Virus record (IMG/VR): IMGVR_UViG_3300042935_000525
Location: 1 to 31,410 of that record
Source: a virus
Reading direction: 5' to 3' (one strand)
Length of the DNA: 31,410 nt
A model generated the notes under the pieces. The model saw nothing but the letters and a program-made list of their open reading frames with translations. It was not told the DNA's origin and ran no database searches. Shown piece by piece: positions 51 to 31,410 of the stretch. Position 1 is the first letter of the stretch, and every line of letters starts with the position of its first letter. The translations under genes were made by a program, and so were the position numbers.

Positions 51-338
51 ATGGCTCTCAATCCTGACCAATTTTCGGTGGAATACCCTTACCCACGGCT
101 TAGAGAGTCATATGCACGGCATTGGGCTATTGAACTCGCAACTTCTCCAAGCGAGGATGCTGGGGAGGCTCCTATACATCCCATAGAAGCACTACATAAT
201 GGCAGGTGGTCAGCAGATCAAGTTGTGAAAATGCATTTGATGGACCCTAACAAACCAGCGGCAAAGAAGTTACTGATTGAAAAAGGCTTTAAAACTAGAC
301 ATGATATGAGGAAACAGTATTCCTCATGGTTTAATTAA
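51..338 (+). CDS. tagged small phage protein, function unknown
   Basis: This 95-residue protein has no recognised domain. It begins MALNPDQFSVEY, a variant of the short N-terminal tag shared by many small genes here; the gene at 6021 begins MALSPDQF. The rest is charged and soluble, with no membrane segment, and ends KQYSSWFN. The ATG lies six bases after a TATACT box, so the message should be leaderless and this start is well supported. It is the first clear gene of the effector-like cluster, with its own promoter separate from the ParB-like gene downstream. By position and tag it is probably another effector or cargo protein, but that is inference. Confidence 0.8.
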   Translation: MALNPDQFSVEYPYPRLRESYARHWAIELATSPSEDAGEAPIHPIEALHNGRWSADQVVKMHLMDPNKPAAKKLLIEKGFKTRHDMRKQYSSWFN

Positions 339-342
339 CATC

Positions 343-348
343 TATACT
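343..348 (+). promoter_or_regulatory. leaderless -10 box TATACT
   Basis: TATACT plus six bases (agataa) precedes the ATG at 355. It is a copy of the promoter at 39-44 within a 19-base identical repeat, which suggests that promoter and gene start were duplicated together. Confidence 0.65.
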
Positions 349-354
349 AGATAA

Positions 355-744
355 ATGGCGGCTAACGAACACCTCAACCACGAACAGTTGCGTATGTTCG
401 TACCTGCCAAAGAACTAATGACCTACACCGCAGGGCATACCGAAGGCTCTAACGAGGATTACCTACCTCTGTCTGAGTCTCCTGGTGTTTACCATAAAAT
501 GCTGTCAGAATCTAAAAGTGGGTCTGCTCATGACACATGGGATTCAAAGAAAAAAGGCAAAGACAGTCTTTACGACAGTATTAAAAAAGAGGGTGTAAAG
601 TCCCCAGTTGAATTGCGAGTATTCAAAAGACAGTGGTCTCAACCAGTCGGAGAAACCGTAACTCAGATTAACAATGGAAATCACCGAGTCGTAGCGGCTA
701 ATGACATCAACCCAGACATGGAAGTACCAGTAAGGTATTCTTAG
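355..744 (+). CDS. ParB/sulfiredoxin-like fold protein
   Basis: The protein has 129 residues. Its second half has the layout of the ParB N-terminal/sulfiredoxin fold: a segment SIKKEGVKSPVELRVF (about residues 74-90), then NNGNHRVVAANDINP (about 105-120), matching the family's G-x-H-R-x-x-A nucleotide-binding motif. ParB-like domains bind CTP or ATP and in phages can act as nucleases, kinases or transcription modulators; which applies here is not visible. The N-terminus MAANEHLNHEQLRMFVPAKELM carries the shared tag and is closely matched by the paralogue at 6362 (LNEAQLAMFIPAHKLM). Leaderless start behind TATACT. It is followed three bases later by a GNAT gene, so the two are probably co-transcribed. 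Confidence 0.75.
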   Translation: MAANEHLNHEQLRMFVPAKELMTYTAGHTEGSNEDYLPLSESPGVYHKMLSESKSGSAHDTWDSKKKGKDSLYDSIKKEGVKSPVELRVFKRQWSQPVGETVTQINNGNHRVVAANDINPDMEVPVRYS

Positions 745-747
745 TAG

Positions 748-1065
748 ATGTCAGCACATGAGAGCCTCAGCCACCAGTTCATAGACAAGCGTGGCAAGGA
801 GCACACGATCCGTACGACCCCGTTTGGGGACGTGGAGGCACGCAGTGGTAAGACCACGACTGGTCGCTTAGGCGTCATGTTGAACTTCCAAGAAGGTGGA
901 GAGCGTCCACACATGGTGTTCGGTATCGCCACGAACAAACGGTATCAAAACAGAGGTGTAGCCACCGCAATGTTCAACGCCGCCGAGTCCCACTATGGTC
1001 CAATTGACATTGGTCCGACTTCATCTGATGAAGGTGCAAACTGGAAAAAGAAGATGGGTCAATAG
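748..1065 (+). CDS. GNAT-family N-acetyltransferase-like protein
   Basis: The protein has 105 residues. GNAT enzymes transfer an acetyl group from acetyl-CoA to an amine. Motif A is seen as NKRYQNRGVATAMFNAAE (about residues 63-80), where R-G-V-A is the CoA-pyrophosphate loop. The C-terminal SSDEGANWKKKMG fits the last strand and helix of the fold. It is short for the family (usually 140 or more), so it may be a minimal domain. The N-terminus MSAHESLSHQF is the shared tag, here fused directly to the domain. The start follows the preceding stop by three bases with no ribosome-binding site, suggesting translational coupling. The substrate is unknown; a host protein is a reasonable guess for a phage effector. 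Confidence 0.7.
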   Translation: MSAHESLSHQFIDKRGKEHTIRTTPFGDVEARSGKTTTGRLGVMLNFQEGGERPHMVFGIATNKRYQNRGVATAMFNAAESHYGPIDIGPTSSDEGANWKKKMGQ

Positions 1066-1479
1066 ATGTCAGCCCAAGAACACCTCAGCCCGAAGTTGTT
1101 TCATGGCTCTGCCCATATGTTTACTCCAGGCGACACTGTAAATCCTGTACCAAAAAGCGAATGGCATCACGAAATGTTTGGTTCTTATGCGTATGCTACC
1201 AATAATGATTTGTCTGCTAAATCCTATGCTGGACAAAAGGCTCAAGAACAAGGACAGTTGTTTGCCCCAGTGTATGAAGTAGAGCCAGTAGACCCGACAG
1301 AGCACACTGAGTACCCTGGTAACAATGGAGCCAACGCCAGTCCTAAAGAATTTGCTGAAAGAGGCACATCACATGCTGTTCACAGCAAAAAAGGATTTAA
1401 AGTAGTTAAGCATCATGGTTGGGGTACGAATCCTGACGCTTGGGTTCACCCTGACCAACGACGATGGGACACACCCTAA
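1066..1479 (+). CDS. Arr-like (rifampin-type) ADP-ribosyltransferase
   Basis: The protein has 137 residues, the usual size for Arr. Arr enzymes transfer ADP-ribose from NAD; the founding members inactivate rifampin. The family's landmarks are present in order: LFHGSAHMFTPGDTVNP (His13, equal to the catalytic His), YAYATNNDLSAKSYA (Tyr41 or 43), and VYEVEPVDPTEHTEYPGN (Asp77, in the context of the Arr Asp84 motif and its PGN end). A drug is an unlikely substrate for a phage; host RNA polymerase or another host protein is more plausible, but that is inference. The N-terminus MSAQEHLSPKLF fuses the shared tag into the first strand. It abuts the previous stop and shares TAATG with the next gene. 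Confidence 0.8.
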   Translation: MSAQEHLSPKLFHGSAHMFTPGDTVNPVPKSEWHHEMFGSYAYATNNDLSAKSYAGQKAQEQGQLFAPVYEVEPVDPTEHTEYPGNNGANASPKEFAERGTSHAVHSKKGFKVVKHHGWGTNPDAWVHPDQRRWDTP

Positions 1480-1748
1480 TGCCTCGCCTAGACGGACAGC
1501 AGTTCCGTAAGGTAGGAAACCATAAAATGTACCGTCACGGTACAGGTAACTGGGAGACCACCGACAACTACCACTTCCAGCAAGGCACCCCACCTACTAA
1601 CTTGTGGAACGTGCATGACCTCCGAGATGTGGATGCATGGGAACCAGTGTTTGAAACACAGCACGGTAACCTACAGAGTGCACATGCAGAGTTCAGGCAG
1701 TACCACCCTGAGCGTGAAGCGGGCAAAAAGCCGCTACTGGACTACTAA
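1479..1748 (+). CDS. tagged small phage protein (MPRLDGQQF type)
   Basis: The protein has 89 residues and no recognised domain. I chose the ATG at 1479, which overlaps the previous stop as TAATG, over an in-frame ATG at 1464. This start gives MPRLDGQQF, identical to the first nine residues of the gene at 2128. The sequence is rich in His, Trp and Tyr (for example DNYHFQQGTPPTNLWNVHD) and has no membrane segment. It overlaps the next gene by one base in the same way. The shared first nine residues on two otherwise different proteins suggest a transferable N-terminal module. Confidence 0.7.
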   Translation: MPRLDGQQFRKVGNHKMYRHGTGNWETTDNYHFQQGTPPTNLWNVHDLRDVDAWEPVFETQHGNLQSAHAEFRQYHPEREAGKKPLLDY

Positions 1749-2128
1749 TGGCGGCAAGAGACCACATTGGTGACCAATTCAAGGTAGTCCATCAGAAACT
1801 AGGTGAAGGTGTAGCCGCTAACAGGGGCTGGCATTCTCTAACGCTTCAAGACCCAAAAGAAGGTACAGACCTTGCTCGTGTGTCTTTTGAGCACTACAAC
1901 GACCCACATTCTGAACCATCGTCAAGAATAGACATAGATTACCTAAAGAGCAATGTTGAGGGACAAGGACATGCCCAGCGACTCATGGAGCACATGTACA
2001 ACCGATACCCAAAATCACACATTGACTGGGGTTTGACAATCAACCCAACATCCACACACATTGCTTCAAAGTTTGAAGACAAGTACTATGACAGGACTTC
2101 ATATCAACCAGAAGAGGGTATGGACTAA
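1748..2128 (+). CDS. GNAT-family N-acetyltransferase-like protein
   Basis: The protein has 126 residues. The acetyl-CoA-binding motif A is visible as YLKSNVEGQGHAQRLMEHMY (about residues 64-83), with Q-G-H-A in place of the usual Q/R-x-x-G-x-G/A loop. It is followed by a strand (HIDWGLTINPTS) and an SKFEDKYYDR helix, typical of the C-terminal half of the fold. The N-terminus MAARDHIGDQFKVVH carries the shared tag. This is the second acetyltransferase-like gene of the cluster and is clearly different from the one at 748, so they probably differ in target. One-base overlaps on both sides place it in the same operon. Substrate unknown. Confidence 0.68.
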   Translation: MAARDHIGDQFKVVHQKLGEGVAANRGWHSLTLQDPKEGTDLARVSFEHYNDPHSEPSSRIDIDYLKSNVEGQGHAQRLMEHMYNRYPKSHIDWGLTINPTSTHIASKFEDKYYDRTSYQPEEGMD

Positions 2129-2283
2129 TGCCACGTTTAGACGGACAGCAGTTCAATGACTATGTGTGGATAGACGGTGAGCCTGTCGCCCGACAAGAGA
2201 TCCACAAGGCCGCTGGATTCACCAAGCGTGACCCTGAGTACCTGCTAGAGAAGAATAAGCAAAAACAGGAACGGAAGAAGTAA
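2128..2283 (+). CDS. 51-residue tagged protein (MPRLDGQQF type)
   Basis: This small gene starts at an ATG overlapping the previous stop (TAATG) and ends at a TAA overlapping the next ATG. It begins MPRLDGQQFNDYVWIDGEPV, sharing its first nine residues with the gene at 1479. The 15 bases encoding the end of the tag (gacggacagcagttc) are identical in the two genes. The tail is basic (EKNKQKQERKK). It could be a tag attached to a short adaptor, or a shortened version of a larger protein. The exact tiling between two genes and the shared start make it a credible gene despite its size. Confidence 0.7.
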   Translation: MPRLDGQQFNDYVWIDGEPVARQEIHKAAGFTKRDPEYLLEKNKQKQERKK

Positions 2284-2537
2284 TGGCGGCGCATGAAGCC
2301 ATTAACTGGGACCAACATTACGGTAAAGCATTCCGTATCGCTAAAGCCCCACGTGAGGCAGTGAACGGTCCTGGAGATGATGCATGGTCTATTGTGACTC
2401 CAGAGAACGGTGACTCATGGAACGAGTGGCCTGATGCCTCCCCAGAACACATTGCGTCTGCTAAAAAGAACTGGAGCACCATCCAGTCAGGGATTGCTGA
2501 CTACAAAATGGGTCAAATACGTAGGAGTATGAAGTAA
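2283..2537 (+). CDS. tagged small phage protein (INWDQ type)
   Basis: The protein has 84 residues and no recognised domain. It begins MAAHEAINWDQHYGKAF, nearly the same as the start of the ADP-ribosyltransferase at 3778 (MAAHEGINWDQF). The first 33 bases of the two genes differ only at a few positions. The remainder is Trp-rich (DAWSIV, WNEWPD, KKNWST) and ends with a basic helix. It overlaps the previous stop by one base and is the last gene before the promoter at 2568. Function unknown; the tag groups it with the effector-like set. Confidence 0.72.
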   Translation: MAAHEAINWDQHYGKAFRIAKAPREAVNGPGDDAWSIVTPENGDSWNEWPDASPEHIASAKKNWSTIQSGIADYKMGQIRRSMK

Positions 2538-2567
2538 CCTCTGCATAATTTTTCGGTGACAACCGTC

Positions 2568-2573
2568 TATAAT
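2568..2573 (+). promoter_or_regulatory. leaderless -10 box TATAAT
   Basis: A perfect TATAAT followed by six bases (tgacct) and the ATG at 2580. An inverted repeat CGGT-gaca-ACCG (2554-2565) lies just upstream and could be a small operator. No convincing -35 box is seen. Confidence 0.7.
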
Positions 2574-2579
2574 TGACCT

Positions 2580-2939
2580 ATGCAAGATCCTCGCAGACCA
2601 CTTCCGCCTCGTGCTAAAGAGCGTGTAACTAACTACACCTCGTTAAGAGGCGACTCAGAGCCTCGTAAGCCTATGGGTAGATATACAGACGACGTAGAGC
2701 AGGAAGAATACGGAGACATCTCAATGGGTCCCCGTAATATGGGTCGTATTCGCCCTAATCAGGCTGAATGGGGCGACTATATCCAAGAGGCACAGACCGA
2801 TTACCTGTCTGGTATTGCTTCGGGAGAGATTGAACTACCGAAAGTGAAGACCAAAGACGCTAGAAAAGCAGGATTTTCTGGTTTAGGGAACGTTTCTGGC
2901 GAAAGAAGGGCACATATGTCGGAGCAGTTCGGAGAATAA
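2580..2939 (+). CDS. phage protein of unknown function with C-terminal MSEQF
   Basis: The protein has 119 residues, is rich in Arg and Pro and probably partly disordered (MQDPRRPLPPRAKERV). No domain is recognised. It ends ERRAHMSEQFGE. MSEQF resembles the LSxxQF tag found at the N-terminus of neighbouring genes, but here it is C-terminal. Leaderless start behind a consensus TATAAT box. The stop lies two bases before the next ATG, where GGAGAATAACG provides a weak ribosome-binding site, so the two genes probably form an operon. Confidence 0.75.
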   Translation: MQDPRRPLPPRAKERVTNYTSLRGDSEPRKPMGRYTDDVEQEEYGDISMGPRNMGRIRPNQAEWGDYIQEAQTDYLSGIASGEIELPKVKTKDARKAGFSGLGNVSGERRAHMSEQFGE

Positions 2940-2941
2940 CG

Positions 2942-3778
2942 ATGGCTAAGTACTATTCTGACAAAAATCCTTATGACGGAAACGAACGTTATGAGGAAGT
3001 TCACGCAATTAGTGACCGTCCTAACGCTAGAGGTATGTACCCACGTGCACAAATGACTGTTAGACATTCAAAAGCCCGTGAGCATGCGAATTTCAAGCAA
3101 CTAGAAGACAACACCGACCTCACCCGAAGCCGAGCACATCAACAAGTCTATGACGAAACAGGCTATGACAGGGGAGAAGTCACAAGGGAACTAGGTGACT
3201 CTTACCATATGGCAGTATCCGCCGCCCGCCAACTTAACGAATATCGTGATAATTCTACTGATCCCACAGCACAAGAATTTGCAAAGCATTACCGCCGTTA
3301 CGCTGGGATAAATTATGCACAAAACATCAGAGATATTAAAAGAGGAACATCCCAATTCTTTACACCTCAACCTGCAACCACAGAAATACGTGGGGCTTTT
3401 GCTCATACATCCATGAAAGCCCATATCCCTGTTATGGGAGCGTACTTTCATCAGAAGTATGGTGAACTCACAGCATCTGAAGACCTGTCAGAACATAGTT
3501 CACGCATGACTGAACATGCCGAAAAACTAGGACTTCCTGTAAAGCGCAGTGAAGATAACCCAGATCTAGACGTTACAAACTCTTACGACTTTAATAATAG
3601 CGATATGGTTGCTTCTGCTACACCGTTTAGTACATCTAGTACTACACGAATCCCTGACGAGACCATGAAATCCGCAAAGCAACACTACAAAGCACTCCGT
3701 GGTATTGGTAAGAGCACCCCTAAGCCGTTGAGTACTCAATTTACCCAGCCTCAACTCCCAGGAATGGAGGACAAGTAA
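2942..3778 (+). CDS. phage protein of unknown function (278 aa)
   Basis: This is a soluble, charged protein with no recognised domain and no membrane segment. The middle (about residues 70-130) is helical, for example GEVTRELGDSYHMAVSAARQL and AQEFAKHYRRYAGINYAQNIR. The C-terminal third is Ser/Thr-rich and probably flexible. It ends FTQPQLPGMEDK; a short Q-x-x-LP stretch also occurs at both ends of the protein at 7925. The gene overlaps the ADP-ribosyltransferase gene by one base (TAATG), which suggests coupled translation and perhaps a shared role. No homologue is recognised from sequence alone. Confidence 0.78.
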   Translation: MAKYYSDKNPYDGNERYEEVHAISDRPNARGMYPRAQMTVRHSKAREHANFKQLEDNTDLTRSRAHQQVYDETGYDRGEVTRELGDSYHMAVSAARQLNEYRDNSTDPTAQEFAKHYRRYAGINYAQNIRDIKRGTSQFFTPQPATTEIRGAFAHTSMKAHIPVMGAYFHQKYGELTASEDLSEHSSRMTEHAEKLGLPVKRSEDNPDLDVTNSYDFNNSDMVASATPFSTSSTTRIPDETMKSAKQHYKALRGIGKSTPKPLSTQFTQPQLPGMEDK

Positions 3779-4296
3779 TGGCGGCGCACGAAGGTATTAA
3801 CTGGGATCAGTTTGATGAAAGTTACGAAAAGGGTCATGCTCCATACCTGCAAGGTACTGATGCAGAGGCTGACATGGAGCAGTGGTCACATGGAACCACT
3901 AAATGGCCTAAAACGTATCTACGAGAAGTAAGAGATAGGCGTAGTGAGCCATATCAAAACATGCAACAACATTTAAGGGATGAAGTCAACCTCCCCGATC
4001 AGGTGCAGGTAACCCACAGAGGCAGTGTCCCTAAGGGCGCTAAAGTAAAAAGTGGATCTATAAACCCTAGTTGGACGGGAAGTAACCCAGATAGTGAACT
4101 TGGGATACATCACTACGGGCAAGACAACAAACTACACATTTACCTAGTTCCCCGTGAACACATTATCGGTGTAGGTCATCCAGGTGAAGACGAAGTATTC
4201 TTTGACCAGGGAAGCCCAAAGAAGAAAGCACCTGCTCCAGGTCTTGGTCAAAAGGGAAGAGCCAAAGCAAGAAACAACTTAAAGCGTCTTAAGTAG
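3778..4296 (+). CDS. R-S-ExE-type ADP-ribosyltransferase-like effector
   Basis: The protein has 172 residues. The catalytic signature of the arginine-type (C3/iota/mono-ART) class can be read in order: VQVTHRGSVPKG (Arg81), SGSINPSWTGS (about 92-102, in place of the Ser-Thr-Ser strand), and HPGEDEVFF (Glu137-x-Glu139, the ExE motif followed by the usual EV hydrophobic strand). Such enzymes modify host proteins; T4 Alt, ModA and ModB are phage examples. The spacing between R and ExE is short, so the fold is compact. The N-terminus MAAHEGINWDQF is the clearest copy of the tag. The C-terminus is very basic (KGRAKARNNLKRLK), which could bind nucleic acid or the virion. Activity is inferred, not shown. 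Confidence 0.72.
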   Translation: MAAHEGINWDQFDESYEKGHAPYLQGTDAEADMEQWSHGTTKWPKTYLREVRDRRSEPYQNMQQHLRDEVNLPDQVQVTHRGSVPKGAKVKSGSINPSWTGSNPDSELGIHHYGQDNKLHIYLVPREHIIGVGHPGEDEVFFDQGSPKKKAPAPGLGQKGRAKARNNLKRLK

Positions 4297-4298
4297 GT

Positions 4299-4304
4299 TA
4301 ATCT
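4299..4304 (+). promoter_or_regulatory. leaderless -10 box TAATCT
   Basis: TAATCT, six bases (ctactc), then the ATG at 4311. It begins three bases after the stop of the preceding gene, and no ribosome-binding site is present. Confidence 0.55.
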
Positions 4305-4310
4305 CTACTC

Positions 4311-4952
4311 ATGCTCCCTTTAGAAGCCTTCAAAGACCTCTATAAAGGTAAAACCATCTGGGTCCTAGGTTCTGGTGGCTCATTAGATTTCTTAACACCA
4401 TCCTTCTTTGATGACAAGGTATGCGTCGGAGTAAACTTTGTCGGCAAAACGTTCAATCTATTGAACTACTACACGTTTTCGCATTATCACGGCGATTCGT
4501 TGGAGATGTCAGAATGTTCAAACTACGTGTTTGCGCCTAAGAAACAACACGGTAACGCTGAAGAGTGGGTCGGAGACGTACCCGACAACGTTGTGCTGTT
4601 TGAAACACACACAGGACAGCCTGGAGAGAGTTTTGACCCTTTCGGTAAAGACGACCCAGTAGATGGTCTGATAATCGGCGCATCCAGTATCCACGGCTCT
4701 ATGCACCTAGCCGCTTACATGGGAGCCAAGCACATCGTGCTAGTTGGTGCGGACTGTGGCAAGTTGAACGGTAGAGACCGTTTCGGCGCTTATGTTGAAG
4801 GTGACAACCCTTGGGAACTGTACAACAAGCAATTAATTGTTATGAAGCGATGGTTAGCAGAGAGGTTTGGCTGCACCGTGTACTCGCTGAACCCTTTTGT
4901 CAATTTCAACCTAGAAGGCGTGAACTTCACAGGCACTGCCAACATCAACTAG
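4311..4952 (+). CDS. DUF115/MptE-like Rossmann-fold protein
   Basis: The protein has 213 residues. The N-terminus has KTIWVLGSGGSLDFL (about residues 14-28), the G-x-G-x-S-L start of the DUF115 (MptE-like, motility-accessory-factor-like) fold. Later IHGSMHLAAYMGAKHIVLVGADCG (about 126-149) matches the second conserved block, in which a helix precedes a strand ending in G-x-D. Members are found in flagellin or surface-glycan modification and in many marine and freshwater phages. The reaction in phages is not established; transfer or synthesis of a sugar for surface modification is a reasonable inference. Leaderless start behind TAATCT. It stands alone between the effector operon and a regulatory intergenic region. 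Confidence 0.65.
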   Translation: MLPLEAFKDLYKGKTIWVLGSGGSLDFLTPSFFDDKVCVGVNFVGKTFNLLNYYTFSHYHGDSLEMSECSNYVFAPKKQHGNAEEWVGDVPDNVVLFETHTGQPGESFDPFGKDDPVDGLIIGASSIHGSMHLAAYMGAKHIVLVGADCGKLNGRDRFGAYVEGDNPWELYNKQLIVMKRWLAERFGCTVYSLNPFVNFNLEGVNFTGTANIN

Positions 4953-5033
4953 AAACTTAGTTTAACTGCCAACCAACATGTGTACGAAATATACATATGT
5001 AATTTTTCGCTAAATTGGGTAAACAGAGATCGC

Positions 5034-5063
5034 ACTAAATTTGGTACTAAATTTAGTACTAAC
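5034..5063 (+). promoter_or_regulatory. tandem palindromic operator (ACTAAATTTRGT)2
   Basis: Two 12-base units, ACTAAATTTGGT (5034-5045) and ACTAAATTTAGT (5046-5057), lie head to tail, followed by a partial third unit ACTAA. The second unit is part of a perfect 16-base palindrome GTACTAAATTTAGTAC at 5044-5059. It lies 23 bases upstream of a TTGACA box. This is the form expected of a binding site for a dimeric repressor or activator; the protein is not identified. Confidence 0.55.
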
Positions 5064-5085
5064 CACAAATAAACCACTAAAAGGT

Positions 5086-5113
5086 CTTGACAACTCGTAT
5101 ACATCAGTGATAC
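5086..5113 (+). promoter_or_regulatory. sigma-70-type promoter TTGACA-16-GATACT
   Basis: A consensus -35 TTGACA (5086-5091), 16-base spacer and GATACT (5108-5113). It lies in the 205-base gap between the genes at 4311 and 5158, downstream of the tandem palindrome. Transcription would start near 5120 and give a leader of about 40 bases before the ATG at 5158. It could drive the whole second effector set to 6730. Confidence 0.55.
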
Positions 5114-5145
5114 TTTGGGGGTGAGCGGGTAATTTTGTTTAGTTG

Positions 5146-5151
5146 TACAAT
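5146..5151 (+). promoter_or_regulatory. leaderless -10 box TACAAT
   Basis: TACAAT, six bases (cagtac), then the ATG at 5158. It may act in addition to the promoter at 5086, giving both leadered and leaderless messages. Confidence 0.55.
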
Positions 5152-5157
5152 CAGTAC

Positions 5158-5388
5158 ATGGCAAAACGCAACGTAAATAAGAACAACCCTGATCCAAGTT
5201 CCCCACCGTCTGCTCCGACTAGTATTTCTGCCGACCGTATTGGTGCATCTGACCAACCAAACCCTACAACTCGCCCTATGCGTCAGGCGGCTTTCCTTGG
5301 TGCAGTAGCAGGTGACTGTGGTTGCCCACGCTGTTCTGGTTACCGTGACATCGCACATATGGTCATGAACCCAGGATCAGAATACTAA
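5158..5388 (+). CDS. small Pro-rich protein with CGCPRC motif
   Basis: The protein has 76 residues. The first half is a Pro/Ser/Asn-rich, probably disordered segment (KNNPDPSSPPSAPTS). The second half has a compact Cys motif, AGDCGCPRCSGYRDIAHMV, with three Cys in C-x-C-x-x-C form that could hold a metal ion or be redox active. I chose the ATG at 5158 because it sits exactly six bases after TACAAT; an upstream TTG at 5143 would overlap that box. The function is unknown, though small CxxC phage proteins often bind host machinery. The next gene follows 12 bases later. Confidence 0.65.
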   Translation: MAKRNVNKNNPDPSSPPSAPTSISADRIGASDQPNPTTRPMRQAAFLGAVAGDCGCPRCSGYRDIAHMVMNPGSEY

Positions 5389-5400
5389 ACTAGACAATCA

Positions 5401-6021
5401 ATGTCAGCGCCACTTAATAACTATCTATTTGGCGAGCATTTTAAAAGAATGCATGGAATGAGTGTTGAAGACGCACTATCTGGCAAAGTTGCCAAAATCA
5501 ATGACACTCTATTAACTCCAGAAGAATATGACGATGCATGGTCTGGATCTCGTATCGGAAAAGGTATGCGACCTTTTGCTGAATCTCACGCTGAACTAAC
5601 ACAACCAACAGACGTCAGCGCAACTATCCACCAGTTTCAAAGAGAACGTGGGGAACATCTAGTTGGAAACCCTCATCGTGTTGCCGCTGGGTTGCGTGAC
5701 CTCACACAGGCTGTGCGTGGTGCTAGTCGTGAAAACGAATCCACTCTGTATCGTGGAGCACGGCGGGCACCTTCACTAGATGTTGGTGAGTCTAAAGACA
5801 AGGCTCTGTCCTTTTCTTCTGATGTGAACGTTGCTCGTTCTTTTGCCGCACCTCGTGGTGGTTCTCGTGGCTCTATCTTTAAAGCCGCTCCAGGTTTAGT
5901 ACGTGGCGTACCCTTGGCTGAGTTAGGCGGTATGCCTAGAACTGTGGGAGAAAAGCGTCGCCCAGAGGCTGAATGGTTGATTGACCCAGCATCGGTTCCT
6001 ACTGAATGGCCTAAAAAGTAA
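5401..6021 (+). CDS. R-S-ExE ADP-ribosyltransferase (ART) effector
   Basis: The protein has 206 residues. The C-terminal half carries a good arginine-type ART signature: STLYRGAR (Arg118), ALSFSSDVNVARSFA (about residues 135-149, the STS strand and helix) and RRPEAEWLIDP (Glu189-x-Glu191, ExE). Order and spacing match ADP-ribosyltransferase exoenzymes and phage Alt-like enzymes. The N-terminal 110 residues are a separate helical region (VEDALSGKVAKIND, VAAGLRDLTQAVRG) that may recognise the target or inhibit the enzyme. The start MSAPLNNYLFGEHFKRMHG is a looser form of the shared tag. A TAAACT box nine bases upstream may give a very short leader. It shares TAATG with the Arr-like gene that follows. 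Confidence 0.82.
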   Translation: MSAPLNNYLFGEHFKRMHGMSVEDALSGKVAKINDTLLTPEEYDDAWSGSRIGKGMRPFAESHAELTQPTDVSATIHQFQRERGEHLVGNPHRVAAGLRDLTQAVRGASRENESTLYRGARRAPSLDVGESKDKALSFSSDVNVARSFAAPRGGSRGSIFKAAPGLVRGVPLAELGGMPRTVGEKRRPEAEWLIDPASVPTEWPKK

Positions 6022-6365
6022 TGGCTTTAAGTCCAGACCAATTTCCATCAACCTTTTACCATGGTTCAAAATCTCCAGATATGGCAGTTGGTTCGTTTAT
6101 TGTACCTGCACCTCCAACACGAAATCGCTATCACGAAACATGGGCAACTGATAATCCTGATGCGGCACATGCAGAAGCATCAATAAACAGTGAAAATAAA
6201 CATTTAGAAAGTCCTGTAAGAATATGGGAAGTAAAACCTATGCGAGGTGGTCAGGATCTCTACGGTCCAACATCTAGTGAACGCCATCCCACTGCAAGAA
6301 ATTACGCATCTCGTCATGGTTGGCGTGTTGTTAGGGAACACCAAGATCAGGGAGGCGCACAATGA
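6021..6365 (+). CDS. Arr-like ADP-ribosyltransferase, short and divergent
   Basis: The protein has 114 residues. The start MALSPDQFPSTFYHGSKS joins the tag to an Arr-type first strand with the catalytic-type His14 (Y-H-G). HETWATDNPDAAHAEA (about residues 38-53) takes the place of the Arr Y-x-A-T-x-x-x-x-A segment, with Trp for Tyr. VRIWEVKPM (about 66-74) corresponds to the V-E-P strand, but no clear Asp follows it at the third catalytic position. It is about 20 residues shorter than usual and may be inactive or altered in chemistry. The TAATG junction upstream and 4-base overlap downstream put it in an operon with another ART and a ParB-like gene. Confidence 0.68.
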   Translation: MALSPDQFPSTFYHGSKSPDMAVGSFIVPAPPTRNRYHETWATDNPDAAHAEASINSENKHLESPVRIWEVKPMRGGQDLYGPTSSERHPTARNYASRHGWRVVREHQDQGGAQ

Positions 6366-6730
6366 CTAAAAGGAAGCACGTCCTTAACGAAGCCCAACTG
6401 GCTATGTTCATTCCTGCACATAAGTTGATGGATATGATCCCACTAGATCAGCCAGAAACGGATAAGCCACAAAAATACAAAGATCTTCCTCAAGTAACTT
6501 CTCGTAAAGTACAAGAAGCAAAAACTGAAGGTTTATACAACGAAATTAAGAGTGAAGGTGTACAAGACCCAATCACAATAGGTCAACACCCTTTCCGTGT
6601 TCGTGGTCGTACTTACGACTACTTTCCTGGAGCCGACTATAAAGGCCCTGTCATTGAAGATGGTCACCACCGCATTGCGGTTGCCAATGACATCAACCCC
6701 AACGCAGAAATCCCTGTTCAATACGACTAG
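6362..6730 (+). CDS. ParB/sulfiredoxin-like fold protein, paralogue
   Basis: The protein has 122 residues and is clearly related to the gene at 355: LNEAQLAMFIPAHKLM compared with LNHEQLRMFVPAKELM near the N-terminus, and DGHHRIAVANDINPNAEIPVQYD compared with NGNHRVVAANDINPDMEVPVRYS at the C-terminus. The G-x-H-R motif of ParB-like folds is at about residues 100-103, preceded by YNEIKSEGVQDPITI, the usual helix-strand. Thus one ParB-like gene occurs in each half of the effector region, each near ART genes. Whether it is a nuclease, NTPase or regulator is unknown. Its TAG stop is part of the -10 box of the next gene. Confidence 0.75.
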   Translation: MTKRKHVLNEAQLAMFIPAHKLMDMIPLDQPETDKPQKYKDLPQVTSRKVQEAKTEGLYNEIKSEGVQDPITIGQHPFRVRGRTYDYFPGADYKGPVIEDGHHRIAVANDINPNAEIPVQYD

Positions 6731-8832: not shown

Positions 8833-11726
<2,894 letters not shown>

Positions 11727-12091: not shown

Positions 12092-14671
<2,580 letters not shown>

Positions 14672-23958: not shown

Positions 23959-25518
23959 GTGCTCACAGACGACGAACTAGACGAGAACCTCTTAGCCGAG
24001 GACGTAGCAGACGAACTGGACGAAACTTCAGCAGAGTTTGTGGACGTGTTGGTAAAACGCATTATTGTGTTTACCGAGGAATTCTGCGATGTGGAATTAT
24101 TCCCGTATCAGATACCTATTGCCTACCGATTGATTGAGTCTGTCATCCTTGGTGACGGTGAAGAAATGACGGTAGTGGCTACACGCCAGTCAGGTAAATC
24201 TGAGGTTCTCTCTAACGTCATGGCTTCACTCATGGTAATCCTGCCTAAGTTAGCAAGGGTCTATCCGACATGGCTTGACAAGTTTGAAAAAGGCTTTTGG
24301 TGTGGCGTGTTCGCCCCAGTAGAAGACCAAGCAGACACCGTGTTTAGTCGCATCGTTGGCAAACTCACCAGTGAGCATGCAATGGACTTCTTGCTGGATC
24401 CTGAGATTGACGACAAAGCAACATCAGGTGGCGCTCGTGGTAAGGGACGCATCATTACTTTGAAGCACTCTGGATCGCTTTGCCGTATGCAAACCTGTAA
24501 CCCAAAAGCAAAGATTGAATCAAAGACGTACCACTTCGTCATGATTGACGAGGCTCAGGAAGCCGACGAGTACATGATTGCTAAATCAATTAAGCCGATG
24601 TTGGCGTTTAACAACGGCAGTATCTGTTTGACAGGTACGGCTACCCGTAACAAGTCTTACTTCTACAAGATGATCCAGTACAACAAGCGACGCATGGTCA
24701 ACGGTAAGAAGTCACGGCCTTGCCACTTTGAGTACGACTATCGTGTTGCCTCAAAGTACAACCCGAACTACGCCAAGTTTATTGCTAAAGAGAAGTTGCG
24801 GATTGGCGAGGACTCGGATGAGTTCCAGATGTCCTATTGCAACAAGTGGGTACTTGACCGAGGTATGTTCGTAACTGACGAGCGCTTAGAGCGGTTGTAT
24901 GACCCTTCTATGGCTTTGGTCAAGCAGTGGTGGCGTACCCCTGTAGTAGTCGGTATTGACGTTGCCCGATCCAATGACTCCACCGTAGTGACAGTCTGCT
25001 GGGTTGACTGGGACCATCCAGACCCATTCGGCTTCCATGAACACCGTGTTCTCAACTGGCTAGAGATCAACAACGAAGAATGGGAATCTCAGTACTTCCA
25101 GATTATTGACTTCTTAAGAAACTATGACCCGATCAGAATCGGCATTGACTCTCAAGGTGTCGGTGGAGCCGTAGCAGAGCGCTTTCAAATCCTGTTGCCA
25201 GATATTGATGTCGTTGCTATCTCATCAGACTCAAAGGCACAACATGAAAGATGGGTACATCTTACAGAGTTGATTCAGAGAGATCAATTAATAATTCCAG
25301 GTCACTCCAAAGCACGGCGTACTCGTGGATGGAAACGCTTTAATCAGCAGATGAGCGACCTAGAAAAGACATACCGTGGTCCATATATGTTGGCTGAAGC
25401 ACCTGAAGAAAAGGGCGCTTTTGATGACTACCCAGACTCTTTGGCTATTGCCTGCTTCATGTCCATGCATGACACCCTGCCTACGATCCAAGTAGCAGAA
25501 AATCCATTCTTTAATTAA
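23959..25518 (+). CDS. terL: terminase large subunit
   Basis: The protein has 519 residues, the usual size. It packages DNA into the prohead using an ATPase motor and cuts the concatemer with an RNase H-fold nuclease. ATPase: Walker A variant ATRQSGKSEV (about residues 74-83), Walker B FVMIDEAQEAD (about 193-203), and coupling motif LTGTATR (224-230). Nuclease: VVGIDVARSNDSTVV (Asp334), RIGIDSQGVGG (Asp397) and FDDYPDSLAIA (Asp490 or Asp493), the three acidic positions. The N-terminal 40 residues are strongly acidic (DDELDENLLAEDVADELDET). GTG start set by the leaderless TATGAT box. No small-subunit gene is obvious beside it. Confidence 0.95.
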   Translation: MLTDDELDENLLAEDVADELDETSAEFVDVLVKRIIVFTEEFCDVELFPYQIPIAYRLIESVILGDGEEMTVVATRQSGKSEVLSNVMASLMVILPKLARVYPTWLDKFEKGFWCGVFAPVEDQADTVFSRIVGKLTSEHAMDFLLDPEIDDKATSGGARGKGRIITLKHSGSLCRMQTCNPKAKIESKTYHFVMIDEAQEADEYMIAKSIKPMLAFNNGSICLTGTATRNKSYFYKMIQYNKRRMVNGKKSRPCHFEYDYRVASKYNPNYAKFIAKEKLRIGEDSDEFQMSYCNKWVLDRGMFVTDERLERLYDPSMALVKQWWRTPVVVGIDVARSNDSTVVTVCWVDWDHPDPFGFHEHRVLNWLEINNEEWESQYFQIIDFLRNYDPIRIGIDSQGVGGAVAERFQILLPDIDVVAISSDSKAQHERWVHLTELIQRDQLIIPGHSKARRTRGWKRFNQQMSDLEKTYRGPYMLAEAPEEKGAFDDYPDSLAIACFMSMHDTLPTIQVAENPFFN

Positions 25519-25968: not shown

Positions 25969-26427
25969 ATGGAAGGCGGCGCCGACGCAGGCGCCAGCAC
26001 AACTGACAGCGCTGTTGAGAGTGGGGGGAGTCCAACGACTCCCCCTACTAATACCCAGTCTGGGATAGCGATTGGTCAAGTGTATGCTGGGGCAGGATTC
26101 TTTACGGGGGCAATGAAAACCCGTAAACAACAATTCCACGAGACCCACCAACAGTACCGACGCCCTGATTACGGTACAAGTGACCGTAACCCACTAATTG
26201 GAAAAACCCCAGGACCTAGGGGTGGAATTGACATGAAGCGCAACATGTCAGGACTTGGTGTCGGTTACCAAGATGCGCTTGATCTGTTTAAGCCTTTGCG
26301 ATCTGGTTTAAACAAAGTCTCTAACGGTACTCGTATGAACCACCGCCCGCAAGACCCAATGCGTCGCCGTGCACAAGGCACTCGTGCATACACAGAGGCT
26401 AATCCTGAAAACAAAGACGGCATCTGA
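25969..26427 (+). CDS. phage protein of unknown function (152 aa)
   Basis: The N-terminal 40 residues are low-complexity (Gly, Ala, Ser, Thr, Pro: GGADAGASTTDSAVESGGSP). Then comes a short glycine-rich stretch (AIGQVYAGAGFFTGAM) and a basic second half (MKTRKQQFHETHQQYRRPDY, MRRRAQGTRAYTEA). This layout is suggestive of an intrinsically disordered or nucleic acid-associated structural protein. It starts two bases after the preceding stop and overlaps the next gene by one base (TGATG). No domain is recognised. Confidence 0.7.
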   Translation: MEGGADAGASTTDSAVESGGSPTTPPTNTQSGIAIGQVYAGAGFFTGAMKTRKQQFHETHQQYRRPDYGTSDRNPLIGKTPGPRGGIDMKRNMSGLGVGYQDALDLFKPLRSGLNKVSNGTRMNHRPQDPMRRRAQGTRAYTEANPENKDGI

Positions 26428-27794
26428 TGGCGGCTAAGAAAAAGAAGGCTAAAGCCAAAAAAGCGGGACCAGACCTATCTAACCGAGTACTTGAGTTTAG
26501 TGATCTTTCAAAGAAGGACCAATCAGACGCTGTAGGAATGGTTAGCCGTGTGTCTGAGACGATGCCACAACAAATGGCAACACTTGCAGAACGTGGTTTG
26601 AAGTCACCTAGACCAGGAATGCAATCAAAAGGAAAGCGTTATGCCGCTGCTGCTCCTCAAATGGTTTCTAAAGCATTGTCTATGGATGACATGGTTAACG
26701 CTCGCAAACAAGCCTTTCATTCTGCTACAACAGGTAGCGTTCGGTTACCAGAAGAAAGTATTGCTGGTCAAGAATTCTATTTCCAACATCGTAAAGAACT
26801 TGACGAAACCACTGGTGGTGGAAACATCCCCATTGATCGTGTTGTTAACGCAACCAGCCGTTTGAGTATTCAAACAAAACCTGAAAGTGAAAAGGCCGCT
26901 CTGTCTGCATTAACTAAGGCGCATTCAAGTGGGACAGTTCATTTTAAACCTGAGATGGTTGAAGCATTAGGTTCTCAGAAAGTAATGGTGCCTACTGAAC
27001 TCCACGGTAAAGAAGTTGCTTTTAAAGATCTTCCAGGTCATGTAGTGCAAGGTATTACCGAGCCATCAATCCGTGGAACCGTAGAGAAACACTCTAAAGG
27101 TGTAGACGTTACAAATATGGCAAAAACGTCTATGCGCTCAAACCTTCAGTATGCTCATGAAGCCCTACAAGGTACCCGTTCTGTGTCTCCAACAGATAAC
27201 CCAAAGTTATTCTCGTATGGTAGAGGTCATGAACTTGCTGTCCCAAATAGTCCAGAACACCGTGAGTATCAATTGCGTGCTGGGCACGTTGGACGGGTAA
27301 AGCGTGGACAAGAAGCCGCTGGTCAAGGAATGTTTGATTTTGAAGGATTGCGCTCCAGTAATGAAGGGGTCTTGTCTAATCAACTTCAAACACCTAATGA
27401 CTCTTGGATGCTCGCTAATGAGCGTCAGCAACCACAGGAAGTGCGCAAAGTAGCGGGAGACGTTAGCCTCTCTACAAAGCAAATGAAGACCAAGCGTGGT
27501 CGTCAAATGGCTGTAGGTGTGGGTAACAAAGACATTACTCCTGCGGGAATTCAACATGCAGTTGGTGCTGAGGCTACAACTCGTGCCGCTAGTGAGATCC
27601 AAAAAGATCTTGGTCTTGACTTTACTGTGCCATCCATGATGGTTCAAGAAGGTGTTTGGGCAGCAGAACGACGTCAGGCTAACGCAGATGCTCCATTTAA
27701 CGCCCGTCAGCGAGCCGCACAACCTAAGAAAGAAAAGCGCCAAGCCGCAACTAAATCACTTCCTGGCATTAACTGGGATCATTTCAAGAGTTAA
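26427..27794 (+). CDS. 455-residue phage protein with C-terminal INWDHF tag
   Basis: A soluble protein with a basic start (MAAKKKKAKAKKAGPDLSNR) and many helices. A C-terminal segment DITPAGIQHAVGAEATTRAA, FTVPSMMVQEGVWAAERRQA (about residues 370-415) recalls a domain in actinophage proteins that ends in a Q-x-x-x-W-x-x-x-R helix, but I cannot assign it. GQGMFDFEG (about residues 295-303) is a short hydrophobic motif. Most striking is the end, LPGINWDHFKS, which matches the INWDQF tag at the N-termini of the effectors at 2283 and 3778. It may be a scaffold or virion protein that shares the same docking site. Confidence 0.75.
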   Translation: MAAKKKKAKAKKAGPDLSNRVLEFSDLSKKDQSDAVGMVSRVSETMPQQMATLAERGLKSPRPGMQSKGKRYAAAAPQMVSKALSMDDMVNARKQAFHSATTGSVRLPEESIAGQEFYFQHRKELDETTGGGNIPIDRVVNATSRLSIQTKPESEKAALSALTKAHSSGTVHFKPEMVEALGSQKVMVPTELHGKEVAFKDLPGHVVQGITEPSIRGTVEKHSKGVDVTNMAKTSMRSNLQYAHEALQGTRSVSPTDNPKLFSYGRGHELAVPNSPEHREYQLRAGHVGRVKRGQEAAGQGMFDFEGLRSSNEGVLSNQLQTPNDSWMLANERQQPQEVRKVAGDVSLSTKQMKTKRGRQMAVGVGNKDITPAGIQHAVGAEATTRAASEIQKDLGLDFTVPSMMVQEGVWAAERRQANADAPFNARQRAAQPKKEKRQAATKSLPGINWDHFKS

Positions 27795-28116: not shown

Positions 28117-28416
28117 GTGAAACAACAAGAGCAGAAAATATCCCTGCTGGACGCCCTGCTTTCTCCCCGAACTAATCCCTCGGCAGACGCATGTAAGTTC
28201 AGCCGAACAGTAGCCAAAATGTCTACTGAAGAGCAGGAAGCAATAAACCGTGCAATTGAACTCATTCGTGAGGACAACGGTTTAGGTAAAAGCAAATCAT
28301 ATAGCGCATCATGGCTTACCAGAGTTATGCGTCAACATGGTTACAACGTGAGTATAAGTACAATCCAGCGACACGTCAACAAAGAGTGTTGCTGTTACCA
28401 AGGAGATGCACAATGA
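28117..28416 (+). CDS. small DNA-binding protein (HTH-like)
   Basis: The protein has 99 residues and a GTG start with AAAAGG upstream. The helices STEEQEAINRAIELIRED (about residues 50-67), SASWLTRVMRQHGYNVSIST and IQRHVNKE (about 74-93) look like a helix-turn-helix of the kind W-L-T-x-x-M-R-x-x-G-x-x-V-S-x-x-T-I-x-R-H. It ends with three Cys (ECCC). Phage proteins of this form are repressors, activators or small terminase-like factors. The upstream inverted repeat is a candidate operator. It overlaps the metallophosphoesterase gene by four bases. Confidence 0.68.
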   Translation: MKQQEQKISLLDALLSPRTNPSADACKFSRTVAKMSTEEQEAINRAIELIREDNGLGKSKSYSASWLTRVMRQHGYNVSISTIQRHVNKECCCYQGDAQ

Positions 28417-29567
28417 GTGAACTAGCAAAAGCGTTAACAACCGCACCACAAGACAAAAGTAAGTTGCTTGGCAAGTTAGTTGAAATGCTTGAAAGCAAGA
28501 ACATTGATATCAATGAAATTGGTGATATCAAACGTGTCAAGTTGTATCAAGCAATGTCCAAGGACTCAGATGGTGAGGCGCACATTCATGACCTCGCCGC
28601 TATTCAGTTTTCTCCTAAGTGGGAAACTGGTCCTGAGTGGCCTGTTGTTACACAAGGTCCTGCAATTAAAATGCCAGTACCTAAAGCAAAGGTAAAGAAA
28701 GCAGCAACATTCAAAACATGTGTTGTTGTTCCTGACATTCAGATCGGTTATTACCGTGGACGTGATGGAACACTAGAACCAACTCATGATGAGAAGGCAC
28801 TTAGCGTTGCACTCAAGATCATTGAAGAAGTGAATCCTGATGCTGTTATTTGTGTTGGTGACAACCTTGACTTTCCTGAGATGGGTAAGTACTTGACGTA
28901 CCCTGCGTATGCACAAACAACACAAGCATCAATTGATCGTGCAACAGTGTTCTGTGCACAGATGCGTTCTGTGGCTCCTGATGCAGAGATAGTATGGCTT
29001 GCTGGTAACCACGAAGAGCGTATGCCTAAGTACCTCTTGGTTAACGCATCAGCCGCTTACGGTTTGCGCAAGGGAAACACCCCAGAATCATGGCCTGTTT
29101 TGAGTGTTCCATACCTTTGTCGTATGGATGACTTCAATGTAATTTACAAGCCAGGTTATCCAGCATCTGATTATTGGGTCAATGAAAAACTACGAATCAT
29201 TCACGGCGATCGTGTGAAGTCGTCAGGTTCAACTGCACACATTTACCTCAACCAAGAAAAGACAAGTGTTATCTACGGGCATATTCACCGCATTGAAACG
29301 GCGTTTAAAACACGTGAAGACTTTGATGGTCCACGAACCATCATGGCTGCATCACCAGGTTGTCTTGCTCGGATAGACGGCGCAATTCCGTCCACTCGTG
29401 GAGGCGTAGATCTTGACGGACGCCCGTTGACTCGTCATGAAAATTGGCAACAAGGACTCGGTATTGTTCGTTATGAAGATGACAACCAACACCGTTTCTC
29501 TTACGATGTGATTCCTATCTACAACGGATGGGGAATGTACCAAGGCAAAGAGTACCAAGCGGACTAA
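28413..29567 (+). CDS. calcineurin-like metallophosphoesterase
   Basis: The protein has 384 residues from ATG 28413, which has AAGGAG seven bases upstream; a longer frame from 28311 overlaps the HTH gene and is rejected. The metal-binding motifs are VVVPDIQIGYYR (Asp108, with Gln110 where the family usually has His), VICVGDNLDF (Gly149-Asp150-Asn151), WLAGNHEER (198-201), then RIIHGDRV and IYGHIHR nearer the C-terminus. Such enzymes cut phosphate esters, nucleotides or nucleic acid ends. The first 100 residues are an extra helical region (LLGKLVEMLESKNIDINEIG) that may bind a partner. Its stop overlaps the start of the proteasome-like gene (TAATG). The substrate is unknown. Confidence 0.85.
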   Translation: MSELAKALTTAPQDKSKLLGKLVEMLESKNIDINEIGDIKRVKLYQAMSKDSDGEAHIHDLAAIQFSPKWETGPEWPVVTQGPAIKMPVPKAKVKKAATFKTCVVVPDIQIGYYRGRDGTLEPTHDEKALSVALKIIEEVNPDAVICVGDNLDFPEMGKYLTYPAYAQTTQASIDRATVFCAQMRSVAPDAEIVWLAGNHEERMPKYLLVNASAAYGLRKGNTPESWPVLSVPYLCRMDDFNVIYKPGYPASDYWVNEKLRIIHGDRVKSSGSTAHIYLNQEKTSVIYGHIHRIETAFKTREDFDGPRTIMAASPGCLARIDGAIPSTRGGVDLDGRPLTRHENWQQGLGIVRYEDDNQHRFSYDVIPIYNGWGMYQGKEYQAD

Positions 29568-30199
29568 TGACAACAATCGTTGGCATCCAAGGTGACGGCT
29601 TTGCCGTGGTATGTGTTGACTCACGTATCTCTACTATGTTTGCTGATGGTCTTGCTCAAACTGGAACGCTTCGTGAAGGTTCAAGCAAGGTATCTACTAA
29701 CGGTAAGTACTTGCTAGGAGCGGCTGGAGATGTGCGTGCAATCAATATCTTGCACCATGTCTTCCAGCCCCCAGCAGTTCCACCAAACCTAAAAGGAAAG
29801 AAACTGGATCAGTTCTTTACTGCCAAGTTCATTCCTGCGTTACGTGAGTGCTTTGACGCACAAGGGTATTCAATACCCGACCTCAATGAAAACAAACAAC
29901 ACATTGCAGAACAAGGATCCAGCATCATTGTGGTAGTTAATGGTGTTATCTATATGGTGGATGGTGACTACGCATGGTGCTCTGAATCCAGTGGTATCTA
30001 CGCCATAGGTTCTGGCGCACACTACGCACTAGGTGCCCTACAGGTCATGATGAACAAAAAGAAGTGGACAGCCCAACAGGCTAAGACAAGTGCCCTCAAG
30101 GCTCTCACTATTGCGGCTCGGTTTGACCCTTACACGGGTCCCCCATACCAGTCCTACATCCAAGGACAGGAAAGCACCCGAACCCGTAAAACGGTATAA
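29567..30199 (+). CDS. proteasome beta/HslV-like Ntn hydrolase
   Basis: The protein has 210 residues, with the start at ATG 29567 overlapping the previous stop. After Met removal it would begin TTIVGIQGDGFAVVCVDSRI, as HslV and proteasome beta subunits do, with Thr1 as nucleophile. Asp17 (V-D-S-R) and Lys40 (EGSSKVS) correspond to the other catalytic positions (Asp17 and Lys33 in the family). LLGAAGDVRA and AIGSGAHYALGAL are the conserved Gly-rich strands. A self-compartmentalising peptidase or a single-chain amidohydrolase is possible. Roles in head maturation or in degrading host proteins are both speculative. A TATAAT box lies over its stop codon. Confidence 0.8.
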   Translation: MTTIVGIQGDGFAVVCVDSRISTMFADGLAQTGTLREGSSKVSTNGKYLLGAAGDVRAINILHHVFQPPAVPPNLKGKKLDQFFTAKFIPALRECFDAQGYSIPDLNENKQHIAEQGSSIIVVVNGVIYMVDGDYAWCSESSGIYAIGSGAHYALGALQVMMNKKKWTAQQAKTSALKALTIAARFDPYTGPPYQSYIQGQESTRTRKTV

Positions 30200-30226: not shown

Positions 30227-30493
30227 ATGAAGACAGAACAAACCAAAAGCATGCTCGCATCGTACGCCCGTTCAGTACTTGGTGCTGGTCTCGCCCTCTA
30301 CATGTCAGGTGTAACTGACCCAAAAACACTTGCTTACTCACTATTGGCGGCTGTTGCTCCAGTAGCATTGCGAGCGCTTAACCCTAACGATAGCGCTTTT
30401 GGTCGCCTCCCAGCCGTTGAAGAAGTAGCCGTTGCTTTGACAAATGTTCCTGTCAAGAAGGCTCCTGCTAAGAAAGCAGCCGCTAAAAAGTAA
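30227..30493 (+). CDS. small membrane protein, holin candidate
   Basis: The protein has 88 residues. Two hydrophobic stretches, SVLGAGLALYMSGV (about residues 16-29) and TLAYSLLAAVAPVALRAL (about 34-51), can form two membrane helices, followed by LNPNDSAFGRLP and a basic Lys/Ala tail (KKAPAKKAAAKK). This form, with NPNDSAFG after the second helix, is one I associate with small phage membrane proteins that are often listed as holins. It has its own TATAAT promoter and an AAGGAG site. It overlaps the next gene by one base. Confidence 0.7.
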   Translation: MKTEQTKSMLASYARSVLGAGLALYMSGVTDPKTLAYSLLAAVAPVALRALNPNDSAFGRLPAVEEVAVALTNVPVKKAPAKKAAAKK

Positions 30494-31101
30494 TGGCAAA
30501 AATGCGTAAGAAGCAGGTTGGGGAACTTACCTCAGATGTAAACGCAGAAATTGCCAAAGAAGGCTTTTCAGGTTGGTCTGTCCGTGCCTATAGTCCGAAT
30601 GCTAGTGCTAAGGCTAAAGACTCCTATATGGTGGCATTGCCTAAAGAGCAAGTAGAAGAAACCATTAAAGCCCCTGTTAATTCTCGTGCAATTAGCCGCT
30701 ATCAGAGGAAGTTTAAAGGGCTTCTTACTGGTTCTAACATGTATCACGGTGGTTGGGTACCGTCTGAAGGGATGGGTACTCAGGACGTTTCAGAAGCACT
30801 ACCACGCACAGATGAGGGGTTTATGACCGCTTATACAAAAGGTGCCCGTAATCGTCAGCAAGCAGTTGGTGAGGTTAATGAGACAGGTGGGTACGTTGGG
30901 GGAATAGATATCCCACAGCACCTACATCCAAAACCAGACTGGGTAGTTGGGCACTCTGGGGATTGGGCACGTGGTACTGCTACTGACCCAATGAAACCAA
31001 AGGTTTCTCAGTCAGGTAACACTGTGAAGATCACTCCTAGCCGAGAAGAAATGGCTGGCGTTTACGCTTCTGAAGAACTCCTAAACCGTAAGAAAAAGTA
31101 A
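30493..31101 (+). CDS. phage protein of unknown function (202 aa)
   Basis: The protein begins MAKMRKKQVGELTSDVNAEI. The central part, LLTGSNMYHGGWVPSEGMGT and LPRTDEGFMTAYTKGARNRQ followed by QAVGEVNETGGYVGGIDIP, looks like a beta-alpha enzyme or virion fold. No family is recognised. The C-terminus is basic (ELLNRKKK). It overlaps the holin-like gene by one base (TAATG) and, on the opposite strand, the end of a zinc-knuckle gene by 40 bases. Confidence 0.68.
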   Translation: MAKMRKKQVGELTSDVNAEIAKEGFSGWSVRAYSPNASAKAKDSYMVALPKEQVEETIKAPVNSRAISRYQRKFKGLLTGSNMYHGGWVPSEGMGTQDVSEALPRTDEGFMTAYTKGARNRQQAVGEVNETGGYVGGIDIPQHLHPKPDWVVGHSGDWARGTATDPMKPKVSQSGNTVKITPSREEMAGVYASEELLNRKKK

Positions 31102-31336: not shown

Positions 31337-31410
31337 ATGGCAGTTGATTTTTGGTCGCCATCATATAGAGCATCTTCAAGCGACCTAACGGTTGCTATAT
31401 CCCCGCTTGG
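31337..31410 (+). CDS. start of a further gene (partial)
   Basis: ATG 31337 opens a frame running to the window edge: MAVDFWSPSYRASSSDLTVA and on. AGGGG lies 11 bases upstream. A two-codon frame ATG TCC TAA (31329-31336), which has closer spacing to AGGGG, ends just before this ATG. The 92 bases between this gene and the reverse-strand gene hold an AT-rich region with TACAAT (31291-31296), a possible promoter. The function cannot be told from 24 codons. Confidence 0.45.
   Translation, partial: MAVDFWSPSYRASSSDLTVAISPL

Follow-up and report, generated by a model that had tools for sequence, protein, structure and literature searches.

A gene for a proteasome-like Ntn hydrolase with a predicted N-terminal catalytic threonine and no propeptide was identified between the terminase and portal genes of a 31,410-base virus record (the window), which is probably a fragment. 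Its product is best modelled as a threonine peptidase of the HslV/BPH type that, like BPH, assembles with itself and works without an ATPase, a reading to which we give a probability of about 0.58. This kind of protein is already known: it constitutes PHROG 1040, falls among the 'group I' proteasome homologues, and has been annotated in actinophage DSL-LC01.

Gene, product and coding start

The gene lies exactly at the coordinates given by a sequence-only reading of the window, which had called it a phage-encoded proteasome/HslV-like hydrolase with an intact Thr/Asp/Lys set; that identification is borne out by Pfam and PHROG matches, the predicted fold and invariant residues.

29567..30199, plus strand: proteasome-like (Ntn hydrolase) CDS without propeptide (ORF, Pfam and PHROG matches; AlphaFold2 pLDDT 85.1, pTM 0.81)

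The ORF encodes 210 amino acids plus a stop codon, and the product begins MTTIVGIQGDGFAVVCVDSR. It matched the Pfam Proteasome model (PF00227) at 33 bits (E 6e-8; curated threshold 22.4 bits) and PHROG 1040, 'peptidase HslV family', at E 3.7e-25. An in-frame upstream start at 29528 was rejected, as stop codons occur there in most close relatives and ATG-ACN is always kept. By this comparison the true start is ATG29567 and the protein begins Met-Thr; since the upstream frame is closed in most relatives while ATG-Thr is retained, no propeptide is predicted. Removal of the Met would expose Thr at the mature N-terminus. The Asp17/Lys40 numbering of the sequence-only reading is correct when counted from this mature Thr1; the same residues are Thr2, Asp18 and Lys41 in the unprocessed chain.

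Catalytic residues and selection

Homologues were dereplicated at 85% identity to 34 representatives, in which the following positions were compared.

29570..29572, plus strand: Thr2 (mature Thr1), predicted nucleophile, codon ACA; 34/34 representatives; aligns with residue 1 of BPH, HslV and beta subunits
29618..29620, plus strand: Asp18 (mature Asp17), codon GAC; 34/34 representatives
29687..29689, plus strand: Lys41 (mature Lys40), codon AAG; 34/34; matches Lys37 of Td-BPH (PMC5777263) and proteasome Lys33
29717..29728, plus strand: G51-G54 (GAAG), oxyanion-hole segment; G51 32/34, G54 30/34
30011..30013, plus strand: Ser149 of the GSG motif, codon TCT; Ser in 26, Thr in 7 and Cys in 1 of 34, flanking Gly 34/34; matches BPH Ser139

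Seven residues (T2, D18, K41, G148, G150, A154, and G156) were invariant in all 34 dereplicated phage homologues, and the invariance of the catalytic set spans homologues down to approximately 25% identity. G54 is mature Gly53, and its distance from the Lys equals that of Gly50 in BPH. At 181 of 181 homologue loci Thr came straight after the start codon, a count helped by a start picker that sought [MVL]T, the alignment being the better evidence. Relatives of the window protein were encoded at 147 IMG/VR loci; a second, more distant group (ct2KA10-like, approximately 34% identical) accounted for 199 IMG/VR loci. Pairwise dN/dS against close relatives was 0.02–0.09 for pairs with unsaturated dS, and as judged from these alignments the gene is under strong purifying selection with its catalytic set intact.

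Predicted fold and subfamily

A monomer structure was predicted with AlphaFold2 from an alignment of 26 sequences, including the window protein and proteins from IMG/VR and genome-contig loci. The model contained the expected strands and four helices, H1 (56–64), H2 (77–98), H3 (151–161), and H4 (169–186). The sequence-only reading had hinged on an Ntn-type fold and on conservation of Thr2 among homologues. Thr2 was conserved throughout the representatives, and the predicted fold is of the Ntn/proteasome type, with an alpha-beta-beta-alpha arrangement, N-terminal Thr, Asp17, the equivalent of Lys33, and an oxyanion Gly.

Foldseek ranked BPH and HslV at the top, with 20S beta subunits also among the best matches. 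VIA-align superposed residue 2 of the model on residue 1 of the BPH, HslV and beta chains, and gave Z scores of 17.7–19.1 over 170–179 residues for archaeal beta, BPH, HslV, M. tuberculosis beta, and Anbu chains (Anbu, Z 17.8, about level with the beta and HslV chains); in the model these values are essentially tied and fold alone does not pick the subfamily. A profile search of the PDB returned HslV at 62 bits, BPH at 56 bits in one full-length stretch, and 20S beta subunits at no more than 38 bits; by these scores, HslV and BPH are nearer in sequence than the 20S beta subunits are. The segment at the pore-loop position (residues 99–118) has 20 residues and was modelled with low confidence; its acidity is mild (net charge −2), so its likeness to BPH is weak evidence.

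Three assignments were rejected: HslV proper (TIGR03692, 29.8 versus 157.75 bits; NF003964, 30.9 versus 137 bits), a 20S beta subunit (TIGR03690, 18.7 versus 191.9 bits; no propeptide), and PPH (the protein has 210 residues and helix H2 is present at 77–98).

Gene neighbourhood

The genes around the peptidase gene are as follows.

23959..25518, plus strand: terminase large subunit, upstream border of the peptidase module (phrog_2, 1.9e-27; PF17289)
28117..28416, plus strand: small HTH-like gene; its TGA overlaps ATG28413 (ATGA)
28413..29567, plus strand: metallophosphoesterase, likely true start ATG28413 after AAGGAG (PF00149, 4.3e-6; phrog_20266, 5.8e-81)
30227..30493, plus strand: small hydrophobic gene following the peptidase gene, retained in most relatives
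30493..31101, plus strand: accessory 202-aa ORF (w202), in some close relatives only
31337..31410, plus strand: start of the portal protein gene (ATG31337), running off the window (portal of relative G004: phrog_64, 4.9e-42)

The metallophosphoesterase stop codon (TAA) and the peptidase start codon (ATG) overlap as TAATG, and the HTH-like, metallophosphoesterase and peptidase genes form a three-gene overlapping cassette. The order was terminase, followed further on by the HTH-like gene, metallophosphoesterase, peptidase, the small hydrophobic gene (not always present), portal, scaffold, and major capsid; among the close relatives with enough sequence to judge, only the 205-kb phage L077 departed from it. 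The head genes of the relatives belong to phrog_64 (portal) and phrog_1357 (capsid), and the scaffold was labelled from its position and from an annotated scaffold in Streptomyces phage Alone3. In contig L106 the metallophosphoesterase-peptidase pair lies outside a head module and is preceded by a similar small gene. The metallophosphoesterase was rejected as an obligate partner, the gene being common in actinophages that lack the peptidase. The G004 metallophosphoesterase shares 43% identity with that of Clavibacter phage CN1A, and the record of Clavibacter phage CN77 has a relative of it in an annotated lytic cassette.

Two other groups of genes were observed in the window. Small, otherwise dissimilar proteins sharing a short N-terminal tag (MAAHEGINWDQF, MAARDHIGDQF, MSAHESLSHQF, and MALSPDQF are examples) are encoded at 51-6730 and also at 53.8–59.9 kb of G004 (L095). 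The tag was found in 10 of 13 proteins against 0.9 expected after shuffling, with a regular expression picked post hoc; it could be a packaging or ejection tag. Two of the tagged proteins have weak ADP-ribosyltransferase- or GNAT-like similarity, and a 455-aa head-module protein (26427-27794) ends in PGINWDHFKS (27765-27794), a C-terminal likeness to the tag. Two collagen-like proteins of 422 and 859 aa with G-x-T/G-P-T repeats (9546-10814 and 12092-14671) stand among tail-fibre-like genes, with glycine-rich proteins around them.

ATPase partner and host

The sequence-only reading had noted that no ATPase partner was visible. This is true of the window but uninformative for a 31-kb fragment, and larger relatives were therefore searched, none giving a match above cut-off: AAA (PF00004) was absent at that level from near-complete relatives of approximately 95–98 kb, and AAA_2 (PF07724; HslU/ClpX/ClpB-type) had no match in six relatives of that size. 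L077 has a peptidase copy 69% identical to that of the window and encodes AAA+ proteins, none adjoining the peptidase gene. A dedicated phage ATPase was rejected, as none was found in the relatives of approximately 97 kb and the AAA+ genes of L077 lie 9–52 kb from the peptidase gene. This 205-kb phage, otherwise unrelated, encodes a ThiF/E1-like protein, an AAA ATPase and a ClpB-D2-like AAA+ protein (L098:2977-3756, 4128-5732; L202); the likeness of the last to the ClpB D2 ATPase was read from the translated sequence, not from a family search.

WhiB genes were present in G004 (two) and in G012, a ct2KA10-type genome (one), and the hosts are therefore probably actinobacteria. Table 1 of PMC8665760 has no mark for HslV under Actinobacteria, and a host HslU is accordingly unlikely. 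The sole match in the genome collection, L106:5001-5630, is on a phage-like contig in a MAG labelled Gammaproteobacteria; the contig carries a WhiB-like gene and is, for that reason, probably a misbinned actinophage contig.

Phylogeny

In a maximum-likelihood tree, a phage clade with proteins beginning 'MTT...', which includes the window protein, was separate from a clade beginning 'MTC...' or 'MTV...' (support 86/83). The latter contained sequences from plasmids of Rhizobium, Mesorhizobium, Streptomyces, and Paraburkholderia and from phages of Moorella, Psychrobacter, Vibrio, and Pseudoalteromonas, and is plausibly the AAH/PPH side of a tree built without reference AAH sequences. The window protein may be an AAH or belong to a further group I subfamily. 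The E. coli HslV sequence was checked against the PDB; the BPH and HslV branches are very long, leaving the root and the position of BPH unsure. The nearest homologues on the tree were those of L077, L106 and the DSL-LC01 group, all outside head modules. The two lineages with the gene in a head module were not sisters, and copies from outside head modules fell between them.

Proposed activity and alternatives

The peptidase gene would be an auxiliary gene of myophages that infect freshwater actinobacteria. Cleavage of Met1 by the methionine aminopeptidase of the host would leave Thr1 exposed, to be activated by Asp17 and Lys40, with Gly53 and Ser148 completing the site as in BPH. By analogy with BPH, the protein would most likely self-assemble into a closed ring or double ring; a monomer prediction cannot show a ring, and ring formation is putative. 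We infer that the enzyme would work without a dedicated ATPase and trim peptides or unfolded or damaged proteins late in infection, late expression being suggested by the location of the gene in the late module.

Several other roles are possible. A host ATPase (Clp or Mpa/ARC) could serve as partner, in which case the protein would be the peptidase half of an ATP-dependent protease, with a host AAA+ unfoldase replacing HslU. The HslV-type fold and sequence are consistent with this, an unfoldase from the host would be needed for folded substrates because no phage ATPase was found in the relatives of approximately 97 kb, and L077 does encode a ClpB-type AAA+ protein; however, HslU is improbable in these hosts, the pore loop is BPH-like, and there was no sign of co-conserved ATPase genes, and we regard such a partnership as unlikely. 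The proposal that the protein mimics, competes with or replaces a host 20S beta subunit by docking onto the alpha rings of the host, made in the sequence-only reading, was not upheld. Many Actinobacteria have 20S proteasomes, the fold is the same and beta subunits score in structure searches, but the bacterial beta model gave only 18.7 against 191.9 bits, the propeptide carried by most beta subunits (PMC8665760) is lacking, and the sequence is nearest to HslV and BPH, which form homo-oligomeric double rings; docking is the least probable of the roles weighed here. Because connectase, a relative in the same fold family, is a ligase and not a protease (PMC8665760), the catalytic set by itself does not tell the activity, and the protein might be a specific transpeptidase or ligase or process a single substrate. 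Connectase is, however, monomeric and without H1-H2, whereas the phage protein has both helices in the model and groups with HslV and BPH; we regard a specific ligase or single-substrate enzyme as very unlikely.

A role in head maturation, also raised in the sequence-only reading, is favoured by the position of the gene among the head genes, but homologous modules function where it is absent, and its nearest homologues lie elsewhere. In the strict form of this idea, a proteasome-type enzyme would replace the usual serine protease and digest the scaffold or trim head proteins. It was favoured at first for portal adjacency in two lineages and because known head proteases were lacking there. The gene stands between terminase and portal, ahead of the scaffold and capsid genes, in the long-enough close relatives except L077. 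The ct2KA10-type phages form an unrelated 39-kb lineage whose terminase and portal are of other families, though the capsid belongs to the same PHROG; at 80 of 81 loci in this lineage the portal gene is followed immediately by the peptidase gene. No S78, ClpP-type or S49 protease was found in 13 genomes with the peptidase in the head module (the Peptidase_S77 search was run without a positive control), whereas a distinct capsid protease is present in DSL-LC01, G020 and Arthrobacter phage Pitbull, where the peptidase gene stands outside this position. An obligate head protease was set back by three cultured Streptomyces phages with the same gene order: Alone3 and BRock, with portals 53–54% and capsids 57–58% identical, and Kumquat, with a capsid 58% identical to the ct2KA10 type. 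A whole-genome profile search found no peptidase in them, and a search covering S78 and ClpP-type (S14) proteases likewise found none. As these phages have neither gene, homologous heads evidently form without the peptidase. The capsid proteins also have no large N-terminal delta-like extension, and the copies of L077, L106 and the DSL-LC01 group are outside head modules. We consider a prohead protease improbable, and the site next to the portal gene may be explained by late expression or by ease of insertion there. A facultative head role is conceivable; a peptidase of Ntn type recruited to head morphogenesis, cleaving the scaffold or the short tags at the N-termini of packaged cargo proteins, is in our view quite unlikely, and if true would be the first capsid protease of this type.

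The BPH-like threonine peptidase thus favoured here is of interest on several counts. No function is known for any phage proteasome homologue catalogued in PMC8665760, and this clade is abundant (147 and 199 confirmed IMG/VR loci in two subgroups) and strongly constrained. With an anatomy that lacks HslU and resembles BPH, it may represent a compact, possibly ATPase-independent relative of the proteasome. Its fixed site beside the portal gene poses a testable question, namely a virion or head role versus a free peptidase.

Comparison with known systems

Phage-borne homologues, PPH and AAH, have been placed in group I together with HslV and BPH, with no AAA+ partners or function-giving context (Fuchs, Alva and Lupas 2021, PMC8665760). 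PPH has approximately 140 aa and is without helix H2 (PMC8665760). The 2021 survey found no Actinobacteria-specific phages encoding AAH (PMC8665760); the present clade is carried by actinobacterial phages. All 30 homologues tested matched PHROG 1040. Such proteins have been annotated in a Citromicrobium phage (PMC8953757) and in a Salmonella jumbo phage, for which HslV without HslU was remarked (PMC7823757). The protein of the Actinomycetia phage DSL-LC01 (WJZ48484.1, 'ATP-dependent protease subunit') is 48% identical over 95% and has the same catalytic set. Its gene sits in a small-gene region beside WhiB, with a separate capsid protease, whereas the window copy is between terminase and portal.

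With PrcB, the bacterial 20S beta subunit, the phage protein has the fold and catalytic residues in common, but the sequence score is much lower and no alpha subunit was seen in the phage. HslV (ClpQ) is similar in fold, in Thr1, Asp17 and Lys, and in having no long extension; it differs in that the spacing from Asp17 to Lys is seven residues longer in the phage protein, the pore loop is longer, and the phage has no HslU. The top structural match was BPH of Thiobacillus denitrificans (5OVS; TM 0.69/0.77, Z 19.0 over 179 residues). Its gene occurs in bacteria, mostly betaproteobacteria, and the protein is only about 20% identical to that of the phage. The BPH site consists of Thr1, Asp17, Lys37, Gly50, and Ser139; BPH lacks a propeptide, has a lengthened pore loop and is not known to have an unfoldase (PMC5777263). 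The phage set T1/D17/K40/G53/S148 matches T1/D17/K37/G50/S139 with identical spacing from Lys to Gly, and both proteins have no propeptide, no partner unfoldase found, and an extended loop at the pore position.
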